Shown piece after piece: positions 8,960-12,332 of a stretch of DNA of 64,000 nt. Under the pieces are notes generated by a model. That model had not been told where the DNA came from. It saw nothing but the letters and a program-made list of their open reading frames with translations, and searched no databases. A program made the position numbers and the translations under genes. Source of the DNA: Clostridiales bacterium (GTDB taxonomy: Bacteria > Bacillota > Clostridia > Christensenellales > Aristaeellaceae); NCBI GenBank assembly GCA_017569285.1, contig CP069419.1:310001-374000 (forward strand), read 5' to 3'. The stretch's first letter is position 1. Each line of letters begins with the position of its first letter.

Positions 8960-8988
8960 TTGACATTTTGCCTTCCGTCGGTCATAAT
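8960..8988 (+). promoter_or_regulatory. Sigma-A type promoter of the T-box operon
   Basis: TTGACA at 8960-8965, a 17-base spacer and CATAAT at 8983-8988. This places the transcript start near 8995, at the base of the T-box leader. It is divergent from the asp23 promoter. Confidence 0.78.
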
Positions 8989-8994
8989 ATGGCC

Positions 8995-9236
8995 AATACG
9001 ATGATGGGAAGATGTTCCCCGGAAACGGTCTTCAGAGAGCTTCCGGCAGGTGGAAGGAAGCGTCCGGCGGGGAAATGTACATCCCGGAGTTATCGTCTGA
9101 AAGCTGCGGCAAGTAGGATGGATCCGGTGCGCCGGTTACAGCGTTCAGATGAGGACATTGCATGGTTGTCCGCAATGTCAAATGGAAGTGGTACCGCGGT
9201 TCTTCGCCTTCCGGAGAACTGCGGATTTTTTGTTTT
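8995..9236 (+). promoter_or_regulatory. Tyrosine-specific T-box leader
   Basis: A tRNA-sensing transcription-attenuation leader. Visible parts in order: AGAGAG motif (9034-9039); distal stem I closed by GCTTCC/GGAAGC (9039-9044/9056-9061); a specifier loop between GGGA/TCCC and CCCC/GGGG helices containing TAC followed by A (9078-9080, Tyr codon); the T-box core AAGTGGTACCGCG (9186-9198), whose TGGT bulge would pair with the ACCA end of tRNA-Tyr; and a terminator with CCGCGGTTCT (9194-9203) pairing AGAACTGCGG (9215-9224), followed by a T-rich run. The T-box overlaps the 5' arm of the terminator, as the mechanism requires. tyrS in the same operon supports tyrosine as the ligand. Confidence 0.92.
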
Positions 9237-9252
9237 TGAAGGAGGCTTTTCC

Positions 9253-10437
9253 ATGGACCAGTCCGCTGTTCATTTTGCCCACCGGTTTGACAATGTATCC
9301 GGAAGCGCTATCCGGGAAATCTTCAAGATCATTGCGCAGCCCGGCATGATCTCGTTTGCCGGCGGCAATCCTTCCCTCAATGCCCTTCCCGACAGGCTGG
9401 TTTCCGAGCTGGCCGTCGATGTCCTGGCACAGAACGGGAAAGCGATCCTGCAGTACGGGGCAACGGAGGGATACGCGCCTTTCCTGGAGAGCCTTCATGC
9501 TTATGCTGCGGATATGCTGAAGTGTGAAATCCCGGCCGTCCTGCCGGTTACCGGTTCCACCCAGGCGATGGACCTGCTCTGCAAGGCCATGATTGATCCC
9601 GGTGACACGATTCTGGTGGAAAATCCTTCCTTCCTGGGCAATCTCCAGTGCATGAAGCTTTATCAGGCCAACCTGGTGCCGGTGGAAAGCGATGGAGACG
9701 GGCTGCTTCCGGATGATCTCGAAGCGAAAATCCGGCAGCACCATCCCAAGATGCTCTACACGATTCCGACATTCCAGAACCCGACCGGGAAGACGCTTCC
9801 GGCAGACCGCCGCAGGCGTATTGCGGAGCTTGCCAATGAGTACCATGTCGTGGTGGCGGAGGATGATCCGTACCGTGATCTTCGCTATACAGGCTCTCCG
9901 CTTCCTTCCATCAAGAGTTCCGATACAGATGGATGGGTGATGTTCCTCGGCAGTTTCAGCAAGATCATTTCTCCCGGCCTGCGCGTCGGTTTCATGGCCG
10001 GCGATGCGTCCATCATCCGGAAATGCACGGTCGGCAAGCAGTCCACTGACGTCCATACAGCCAACCTGAACCAGGCGGTTGTGGACCAGTTCATTCGCCG
10101 CGGTCTGCTGCCGGGCCATATCGCTTCCATCTGCGCCGAGTACGGAAAGAAGATGAAGCTGATGCTGGACCAGCTTTCCGCATTCCCCGGCGGCGTCTCC
10201 TATACAAAGCCGGAAGGCGGCCTGTTCATCTGGGCGGAACTTCCGGAGAACATCAGCGCGCTTGACATGCTGACCAAAGCCATCGATAAAAAGGTTGCCT
10301 TTGTCCCCGGCACGCATTTCTGTGTCGGCGGCGGCCACGAAAACACCATTCGGCTGAACTTCTCCAACAGTACCGAAGAACAGATCATAACCGGCATGGG
10401 CATCCTGAAGGACCTGATTGCCGAAGCAATACGATAA
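9253..10437 (+). CDS. PLP-dependent aminotransferase, class I/II (2-aminoadipate/aromatic type)
   Basis: A fold-type I aminotransferase of 394 aa, related to the LysN/ARO8-like group. The Schiff-base lysine is K237 in GSFSKIISPG; NPTGKTLP and ITPVTGST-like cofactor motifs are present. The ATG at 9253 has GAAGGAGG just upstream. A longer open frame from 8941 only reads through the promoter and T-box leader. Control by a tyrosine T-box and the location directly before tyrS suggest it acts on aromatic amino acids, most likely tyrosine formation or salvage from the 2-oxo acid; that substrate is inference. The family also includes 2-aminoadipate and broad-range enzymes. Confidence 0.9.
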   Translation: MDQSAVHFAHRFDNVSGSAIREIFKIIAQPGMISFAGGNPSLNALPDRLVSELAVDVLAQNGKAILQYGATEGYAPFLESLHAYAADMLKCEIPAVLPVTGSTQAMDLLCKAMIDPGDTILVENPSFLGNLQCMKLYQANLVPVESDGDGLLPDDLEAKIRQHHPKMLYTIPTFQNPTGKTLPADRRRRIAELANEYHVVVAEDDPYRDLRYTGSPLPSIKSSDTDGWVMFLGSFSKIISPGLRVGFMAGDASIIRKCTVGKQSTDVHTANLNQAVVDQFIRRGLLPGHIASICAEYGKKMKLMLDQLSAFPGGVSYTKPEGGLFIWAELPENISALDMLTKAIDKKVAFVPGTHFCVGGGHENTIRLNFSNSTEEQIITGMGILKDLIAEAIR

Positions 10438-10449
10438 GGAGGAATCCCC

Positions 10450-11679
10450 ATGGAACACATTCTCGACATTCTGAAAGAGCGCGGCTTTATCGCGCAGGTT
10501 ACATTTGAGGATGAACTGTACGAGCAGCTGAAGAATCCGACCGTTTTCTATGTCGGCTTTGACCCGACTGCCGACAGCCTCCATATCGGCCATTATATCC
10601 CGATTATGGCGATGGCGCATATGCAGCGGGCCGGCCATAAGCCCATCGCCCTGATGGGCGGCGGAACCGCCATGATCGGCGATCCGTCCGGCAAAACCGA
10701 TATGCGGAAAATGCTGACCACCGAAGCAATCGACCACAACGTTGAATGCATCAAGAAGCAGATGTCCCGCTTCCTTGATTTCAGTGACGGGAAAGCCGTC
10801 ATCGTAAATAACGGGGACTGGCTGCGCCACCTGAACTTTATTGAGTTTATGCGGGATATCGGCTCCCAGTTCTCCGTCAACAAAATGCTCACCGCAGACT
10901 GCTACAAAGCCCGTATGGCAACTGAGAACGGCCTCAGCTTCCTGGAATTCACCTACATGCTGATGCAGAGCTATGACTTCCTCGAACTGTTCCACCGCTT
11001 TGGCTGCCGGCTGGAAATGGGCGGCAACGACCAGTGGAGCAACATGCTCGGCGGTGCGGACCTGGTCCGGAAAAAGGAGGGCGAAAAGGCTTTTGCCTGC
11101 ACCTTCCAGCTGCTCCTGACCCATGACGGCCGGAAAATGGGCAAAACGGAAGCCGGCGCACTCTGGCTGGATCCGGTCAAAACCTCTCCCTATCAGTTCT
11201 ACCAGTACTGGAGGAACGTGGATGACAAGGACGTGGAAAAGTGCCTTGCCCTGCTGACCTTCCTGCCCATGGATGAAGTGCGCCGCCTGGGTGCTCTCCG
11301 GGATTCTGAAATCAACGAGGCCAAGAAGGTCCTGGCCTATGAAGTCACCAAGCTGGTTCATGGTGAAGAAGAAGCCCGGAAAGCCGCGGATGCATCCGCT
11401 TCTCTCTTCGGCGGCGGCGCTTCCATGGAGAATGTCCCGACCCTGGAGGTTTCAGAAGCGGAGCTGAACGAGGATGCCCGTGTTTCCACAATGCTGGTCC
11501 GTTCCGGCCTCTGCAAGAGCCAGAGCGATGCCCGGAAACAGATCGAGCAGAACGCGGTCTCCCTGGATGACAGCAAGGTGACCGATCCGGCTGCGCAGAT
11601 TTCCGTCTCGCAGCTGAAAGAGGACGGAATCCTCCTGAAAAAAGGCAAGAAGGGATTCTGCCGCATCAAGCTGGCATGA
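10450..11679 (+). CDS. tyrS: Tyrosyl-tRNA synthetase
   Basis: Charges tRNA-Tyr with tyrosine. Class I signature HIGH at residues 45-48, KMGKT (KMSKS equivalent) at about 229-233, and a C-terminal S4-type RNA-binding domain beginning near [10 protein letters not shown]. Length 409 aa is normal. An AAGGAGG site spans the 12-base gap after the aminotransferase, so both are made from the T-box-regulated transcript. Overlaps the next gene by four bases (ATGA). Confidence 0.97.
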
Positions 11680-12332
11680 AAGACTCGTATATTACCGTAA
11701 AATCATCGGCCTCCGATGAATTCACAATCGAAAAAAGCCGGTTCATCGGCTATGCATGTCCCTGTGCGACAGAAAGCGAAGCCCTGTCCTTCCTGCAGTC
11801 CGTCCGCGATCAGCACCACGGGGCAACACACCACTGCTATGCGTATATCATCGGTGAAAACGCCGGGATTATGCGGTACAGTGACGACGGAGAGCCCGGC
11901 GGTACCGCCGGGCTCCCGATTGTCGAAGTGATGAAATCTTCGCATGTGGTAAATTGCTGTGTGGTTGTCGTCCGGTATTTCGGCGGTGTCCTGCTGGGGA
12001 CCGGCGGCCTTGTCCGTGCCTATACGCAGGGCTGTAAAACAGCCCTGAACGCAGCCGGAATCGCCAGGATGGAGCTGACTTCCCGGATGCTCTGCGACAT
12101 TCCGTATTCCTGCTGGGACTCACTCTGCCACGCTGCCGGGAACCTGCCCGTCCGGATTGAAAATCCCGAGTTTGCCTCCTCCATCACATTTACCCTCGCC
12201 GTCCGCACACGGGACCTGGCTTCCGTAACAGATGCCCTGAACCGTGTTACCGGCCGGAAAATCGAAATGATTCCGGGGGAAGAGCTGTACGTTCCATGGG
12301 AAGTGGAGAAATCCGGCCCGTCAGGCGATTGA
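11676..12332 (+). CDS. YigZ/IMPACT family protein
   Basis: A 218-aa protein of the YigZ family (UPF0029), related to the IMPACT translation-regulator domain. [12 protein letters not shown] and [17 protein letters not shown] are typical family motifs in the N-terminal half; the C-terminal domain of about 70 residues resembles the EF-G domain IV/V-like fold described for this family. Biochemical role is unsettled. Translationally coupled to tyrS by an ATGA overlap and convergent with deoD (12-base 3' overlap). Confidence 0.92.

Follow-up and report, generated by a model that had tools for sequence, protein, structure and literature searches.

The 64,000-nucleotide window analysed here (contig CP069419.1, positions 310,001 to 374,000, from a Clostridiales bacterium with a 3.27 Mb genome in two contigs) carries a predicted T-box leader with a tyrosine specifier in front of genes for an aminotransferase, tyrosyl-tRNA synthetase (tyrS) and a member of the yigZ/IMPACT family. 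This leader probably acts as a transcriptional switch that governs all three genes. The aminotransferase is likely to make tyrosine from a keto acid supplied by TyrA or, in some relatives, by an acyl-CoA ligase and an indolepyruvate:ferredoxin oxidoreductase (IOR). The switch itself is of the textbook kind, and its value lies in where it points. It suggests a substrate, open to testing, for an aminotransferase without a name whose gene stays next to tyrS in much of an order of mostly uncultured gut bacteria.

The tyrosine leader and its operon

The leader (positions 8992-9214 of the window, on the forward strand like the rest of the operon) matches the full T-box model RF00230, from model position 1 to 219, with a score of 90.3 bits. 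The E-value is 1.5e-20 in a scan of 401 bases and 2.9e-20 in a scan of the genome. The initial annotation had called a T-box here from the letters alone, and the covariance-model search bears it out, though with a score under the curated 93-bit gathering threshold. A sigma-70-type promoter (TTGACA-17-CATAAT, 8960-8988, 11 of 12 bases in a consensus scan) lies upstream, and transcription would be expected to start near 8995.

Stem I has a lower helix (9006-9085), in which GGG at 9006-9008 pairs with CCC at 9083-9085, and, between 9034 and 9061, an AGAGAG bulge (at 9034) and an upper hairpin joining 9039-9044 to 9056-9061. The specifier codon, UAC for tyrosine, occupies 9078-9080 and is followed by A; it aligns with the model columns that we take to form the Rfam specifier. 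The antiterminator (9184-9212) presents a UGGU bulge for the tRNA end at 9189-9192, in the context GGAAG-UGGU-ACC from 9184. It is overlapped by an intrinsic terminator stem-loop (9194-9224) followed by a U tract. The two structures draw on the same bases (GGAAG 9184-9188 with CUUCC 9208-9212, and GCG with CGC) and are mutually exclusive. The terminator has a folding energy of -21.5 kcal/mol (z -5.8), and none of 200 shuffles is equally stable. The antiterminator stretch, folded alone, is about as stable as shuffled versions of itself (z 0.05), and the stability of Stem I barely exceeds that of shuffled sequence (z -0.8). Every main T-box part that had been listed at the outset is present.

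A tRNA-Tyr gene found by pattern search (locus L185) has the anticodon GUA and an encoded 3' end of CCCACCA, and the UGGU of the leader can therefore pair with ACCA. With a tyrosine specifier that matches its anticodon and a matching discriminator, this tRNA is predicted to fit the leader at both contact points. The full-model match, Stem I with its AG bulge and specifier, and a UGGN antiterminator exclusive with the terminator mark the leader, as judged from its sequence, as a real and ordinary T-box. By analogy with the known T-box mechanism, charged tRNA-Tyr would be unable to stabilize the antiterminator, and transcription would end at 9224. Uncharged tRNA-Tyr would bind at two places, its anticodon on UAC and its free ACCA end on UGGU; this would let the antiterminator form and the three genes be made.

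The first gene under this control is the aminotransferase (9253-10437, 394 amino acids; PF00155, E 1.3e-32), not tyrS, just as the initial annotation had stated. The tyrS gene follows after a gap of 12 bases (10450-11679, 409 amino acids; TIGR00234, 411 bits against a cut-off of 113.8). The yigZ family gene (11676-12332; TIGR00257, 178.4 bits against a cut-off of 167.95) overlaps tyrS by 4 bases, and an operon drawn to end at 11679, as it had been, omits it.

Comparable leaders were sought by motif upstream of related aminotransferase genes, at 25 named loci from ruminant and other gut Clostridia and at 99 loci fetched from 98 genomes of the order. In the order search, 107 of 248 genomes have a match at E 1e-60 or better, one of them the window's own and eight others not fetched. 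The motif search yields 37 T-box leaders, from 15 of the named loci and 22 of the order loci. With the window included, UAC is invariant in all 38 aligned leaders, which rules out a chance reading of loop bases; in 26 of them the next base is A, in the other 12 it is C. AGAGA is at least 90% conserved, and AGUGGUAC of the antiterminator is invariant.

The helices are conserved as well. In four helices comprising 17 pairs, 98.9% of cells are paired across the 38 leaders, and 11 of the 17 pairs show compensatory change. None of 500 shuffles does as well, and slid versions reach 46-61%, a comparison that favours the structure because it was drawn on the window row. The lower Stem I helix is paired in 100% of cells with compensatory change in all three pairs, the upper hairpin in 99.6% with change in five of six, and antiterminator helices 3 and 4 in 96.8% and 100%. 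This covariation reflects selection on structure, not chance.

A Stem I model, R1, was run on the 87 aminotransferase loci with no motif match, of which four have fewer than 300 bases upstream. Its single match (E 0.89, 12.9 bits) gives no sign of a store of unseen T-boxes. R1 has only six base pairs and is mostly a sequence profile. Of 39 further T-box loci that had been fetched, it recovers 33; five of these are aminotransferase leaders from which the model was built, which leaves 28 of 34 independent ones. It could still miss a few T-boxes. Four relatives (L031, L032, L035 and L040) have an aminotransferase locus without a T-box. L032 keeps a remnant resembling a T-box core and terminator, with no Stem I, and L040 has perhaps a shorter one; none is seen in L031 or L035.

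The leader shares its architecture, UAC, UGGU, terminator/antiterminator choice and the presence of tyrS in the transcript with the T-boxes of B. subtilis tyrS and other Bacillota (RF00230). Unlike in those systems, an aminotransferase comes first, with tyrS and yigZ behind it. According to the accessible part of a 2008 survey (PMC2494555), tyrosine T-boxes occur on tyrosyl-tRNA ligase and NhaC transporter genes, and T-boxes are also found on a tyrosine operon and a phenylalanine hydroxylase gene of the B. cereus group; the word 'aminotransferase' does not occur in its main text.

The aminotransferase and its place beside tyrS

The aminotransferase is a fold-type I enzyme. Its three Pfam matches are all to families of pyridoxal phosphate (PLP) enzymes, and it has an SFSK lysine (K237), NPTG at 176-179 and a C-terminal RLNF arginine (R367). 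The closest solved relatives, 1x0m, PH0207, the 'multiple substrate aminotransferase' 1wst and Thermus LysN, match over nearly the full length, with E-values from 1.5e-89 (1x0m) to 5.5e-80 (LysN) and with the PLP and carboxylate motifs aligned. By sequence, this relation places the enzyme in the Aro8/KAT-II/LysN type. No NCBIfam model reaches its cut-off among the matches listed (25 of 66). The best of these are MocR-like, but the protein has no DNA-binding domain, and a MocR/GabR-type regulator was rejected.

The likeness to archaeal group G6 (PH0207, PF0121 and OCC_04335) and to LysN is known from sequence and covers nearly the full length and the motifs; unlike those enzymes, the window enzyme is linked to tyrS and lies under a T-box. 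Activities within G6 vary. As described in the accessible part of PMC9986279, PH0207 acts on kynurenine and is grouped with Pyrococcus furiosus and Thermococcus litoralis members (PF0121 and OCC_04335) that use phenylalanine, tyrosine and tryptophan.

Most likely, the enzyme would convert 4-hydroxyphenylpyruvate and glutamate to tyrosine, and perhaps make phenylalanine likewise. In the window's genome the keto acid would come from TyrA. Only one TyrA is encoded, in the operon pheA-aroB-aroC-aroEK-aroA-tyrA-DAHP synthase (all but TyrA named by eye). This operon contains no aminotransferase, and none of the ten T-boxes of the genome scan lies there. Some relatives without TyrA would instead activate 4-hydroxyphenylacetate with CoA and obtain the keto acid by reductive carboxylation of the IOR type. 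Prephenate and 4-hydroxyphenylacetate may both be starting points of routes to tyrosine that this aminotransferase completes.

The gene pair is more widespread than the switch. Adjacency here means that tyrS starts no more than 700 bases after the aminotransferase, and only loci whose downstream sequence extends for 1.5 kb or more were counted. In the order, 74 of 94 such loci have the pair, versus none of 38 from other orders of the class, where the aminotransferase loci may be paralogues. For the class sample, 122 genomes beyond the order had a match and 40 loci were fetched, 38 of them long enough downstream. Within the order the pair occurs in 17 family codes; a T-box was found in three of these (f1, f23 and f26) and not in 14. 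At one locus, L161, homologues of aroEK, pheA, aroC and aroA lie upstream on the opposite strand of aminotransferase-tyrS-yigZ, the sole such case in 164 loci (E 1e-6).

On a tree of 165 aminotransferases, 38 have a T-box and tyrS, 59 have tyrS alone, 64 have neither and 4 lie on sequences that end too soon. All T-box rows fall in one clade of 50, together with four that have tyrS only (the four relatives named above) and eight that have neither. The minimum number of changes is at least nine for T-box state and 11 for tyrS adjacency, on a FastTree topology with flagged long branches in which gain cannot be distinguished from loss. Within the clade, the switch goes with tyrS. Comparison across relatives, which the initial annotation had named as a check, speaks partly for its proposal, through the constant UAC and the frequent gene pair, and partly against it.

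Several observations count against a tyrosine-making enzyme with a switch of its own, and this tracking of tyrS is the strongest. The T-box is present on 38 of 42 tyrS-linked aminotransferases of the clade versus 0 of 7 testable unlinked ones (for the eighth, L049, the 62 upstream bases available are too few to judge). A lone tyrS, 52% identical, follows a tyrosine-type T-box in three genomes whose aminotransferase is unlinked (L066, L078 and L079). Because no testable unlinked aminotransferase carries one, the T-box may be the switch of tyrS, with the aminotransferase merely co-transcribed as a promoter-proximal passenger that acts on an unrelated substrate such as 2-aminoadipate, a branched-chain amino acid or alanine. 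The closest relatives do include kynurenine and 2-aminoadipate aminotransferases. The last step of tyrosine synthesis could also fall to HisC (above its cut-off) or to two more class I aminotransferases, labelled AspB-like and PatA-like from matches below cut-off; the enzyme is a good candidate for that step, not the sole one. Nevertheless, a passenger role is unlikely. A passenger would hardly be retained with tyrS in so many family codes, most of them with no T-box found, and the nearest enzyme group includes aromatic aminotransferases. In the window's genome the two genes are simply on one transcript. Since the T-box goes with tyrS, the aminotransferase comes under tyrosine control by sharing that transcript.

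An enzyme that did no more than complete de novo tyrosine synthesis would be expected to accompany TyrA, but co-occurrence with TyrA is weak. TyrA is present in 85 of 107 genomes with the aminotransferase versus 88 of 141 without it (odds ratio 2.3, p 0.005). For TrpA, taken as the control, the counts are 32 of 107 versus 6 of 141 (odds ratio 9.6). Because the TyrA association is the lower of the two, the link is unspecific and may only reflect fuller amino-acid synthesis. Because co-occurrence is weak and TyrA was not found in some genomes (five matches below the Pfam cut-off were identified by inference from the tally and E-values), the idea that the enzyme completes the TyrA pathway everywhere was discarded.

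Among TyrA-less genomes, IorA is found in 18 of 25 with the aminotransferase versus 11 of 55 without (odds ratio 10.3, p 1.3e-5), although eight of the 18 belong to one family and the p-values ignore kinship. The IorA threshold, E 1e-80 or less, was chosen after the match list had been viewed; a stricter one gives 16 of 25 versus 10 of 55. In TyrA-positive genomes the difference is marginal (60 of 82 versus 50 of 86, p 0.05). Three T-box genomes (G028, G204 and G246) have no TyrA above cut-off, G246 having a match below it, and all three have IorA at the threshold or better, with G028 (5.2e-147) far weaker than the other two. The phrase 'making or salvaging' tyrosine was thus well chosen. Three tyrS-linked genomes (G047, G101 and G118) lack both TyrA and a strong IorA, a further point on the opposing side.

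Two other explanations bear on the direction of the pathway and on the state of the leader. It is very improbable that the aminotransferase serves tyrosine breakdown, as in Stickland-type fermentation, and shares the operon by accident. According to the accessible part of PMC13285125, some anaerobes do turn tyrosine into 4-hydroxyphenylpyruvate, which ferredoxin oxidoreductases oxidise, but a T-box that raises expression when tyrosine is scarce has the wrong sign for this purpose, and the gene is co-transcribed with tyrS. We give hardly any credence to the idea that the leader has decayed into a T-box unable to switch in this organism. Its score falls 2.7 bits below the Rfam cut-off, which is why a scan of the window at the default gathering threshold reports a tRNA and nothing else, and the leader is missing from four relatives, with a terminator-like remnant in one. 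However, the functional parts are all intact, base pairing of the helices holds in the window's own row of the alignment, and a relative with 94% identity (L028) retains the leader.

The proposal that tRNA-Tyr raises an enzyme making or salvaging tyrosine is therefore partly supported. The aromatic relatives and the aro operon without an aminotransferase speak for it; the bond between T-box and tyrS and the loose link to TyrA weaken it. The functional clue is sound, but it must be read through tyrS.

Tyrosine-type T-boxes on ligase-IOR operons and a symporter

An AMP-forming acyl-CoA ligase is present in 39 of 248 genomes, and IorA (E 1e-80 or better) in 38 of these 39 versus 101 of the 209 others. 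The ligase and the aminotransferase show no association: the aminotransferase is present in 21 of 39 genomes with the ligase versus 86 of 209 without it (p 0.16). T-boxes were sought at 30 of the 39 ligase loci and at six IorA loci. The ligase gene of genome G021 (L058) follows a T-box of 111.8 bits in which UAC occupies the tyrosine position; there the Rfam column alignment is one base off, and the tyrosine reading rests on spacing to the lower helix. Five ligase loci have a T-box with GAAUAC, all above the Rfam threshold (95.9-125.1 bits), and 25 of the 30 scanned ligase loci give no T-box match.

Three of these five leaders head operons. The gene order is ligase-SSS-IorA-IorB in G246, the same with a PaaK-like gene added in G186 (where the match to the SSS symporter family is in two pieces), and ligase-IorA-IorB-PaaK-like in G234. 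In G161 and G076 the ligase follows the T-box, but the sequence fetched, which is short for G076, shows no IorAB. G246 and G186 also bear a T-box on aminotransferase-tyrS (loci L086 and L100). The window's genome has the ligase-IorA-IorB set with no T-box found before it. It does have a tyrosine-type T-box of 106.6 bits (G000:C1:2666162-2666400) before an SSS-family symporter gene (L001; L236 4027-5610, reverse strand). This T-box is the second-best Stem I model match in the genome (68.0 bits, against 37.7 for the next), and the symporter is 72-78% identical to the products of genes inside two of the T-box ligase-IorAB operons.

The same ligase-IorA-IorB set, in relatives and in the window's genome, is known from the IOR and AMP-forming arylacetate-CoA ligase of Bacteroides and methanogens; unlike there, a tyrosine-type T-box stands in front of it in some relatives and points to synthesis. 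In the accessible part of PMC13285125, IORs are reported to act on phenyl-, hydroxyphenyl- and indolepyruvate. The AMP-forming ligase beside the Bacteroides IOR is identified there as an arylacetate-CoA ligase, that IOR is said to be possibly biosynthetic, and the question of building or degrading is raised; T-boxes are not mentioned in that part. A tyrosine T-box before ligase-IOR operons would support the biosynthetic direction in these bacteria, since its control sign argues for building tyrosine over degrading it. Our literature search found no paper pairing 'T-box' with 'indolepyruvate', a result that does not establish absence from print.

These arrangements suggest, tentatively and with slightly less than an even chance in our estimate, an order-wide system of carboxylic-acid salvage run by T-boxes. 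Uncharged tRNA-Tyr would induce 4-hydroxyphenylacetate uptake by the SSS symporter, its activation with CoA by the ligase, its reductive carboxylation to 4-hydroxyphenylpyruvate by IorAB, and the aminotransferase with tyrS, as an alternative or a supplement to TyrA. The same estimate covers the accompanying proposal that the T-box is placed on different members of this set in different genomes. Of the ideas raised by the leader, this broader salvage reading is the one most worth following.

Other T-boxes in the genome

The window's genome has further T-boxes. Two that are below the gathering score (84.5 and 70.6 bits) precede genes for proteins of 783 and 801 amino acids (L234 654-3005, forward; L235 5789-8194, reverse) with helix-turn-helix, cupin and AMP-binding domains, both taken to be acyl-CoA synthetases. 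Their specifiers, read by eye from spacing, are GUC (valine-like) and AUC (isoleucine-like). Another, of 86.4 bits with a UGG specifier read by eye, precedes a gene for a TrpB-like enzyme (L004 58-1449, reverse; NF009057, 684.9 bits). No TrpA was found in the window's genome, and a TrpB-like gene under a tryptophan-like T-box suggests indole salvage. Alongside the tyrosine case, the valine-, isoleucine- and tryptophan-like T-boxes suggest similar routes that start from branched-chain acids and from indole. Finally, a thiamine pyrophosphate (TPP) riboswitch of 70.4 bits (L001 1870-1972, forward) is divergent from the symporter T-box and lies before a transporter-like reading frame.

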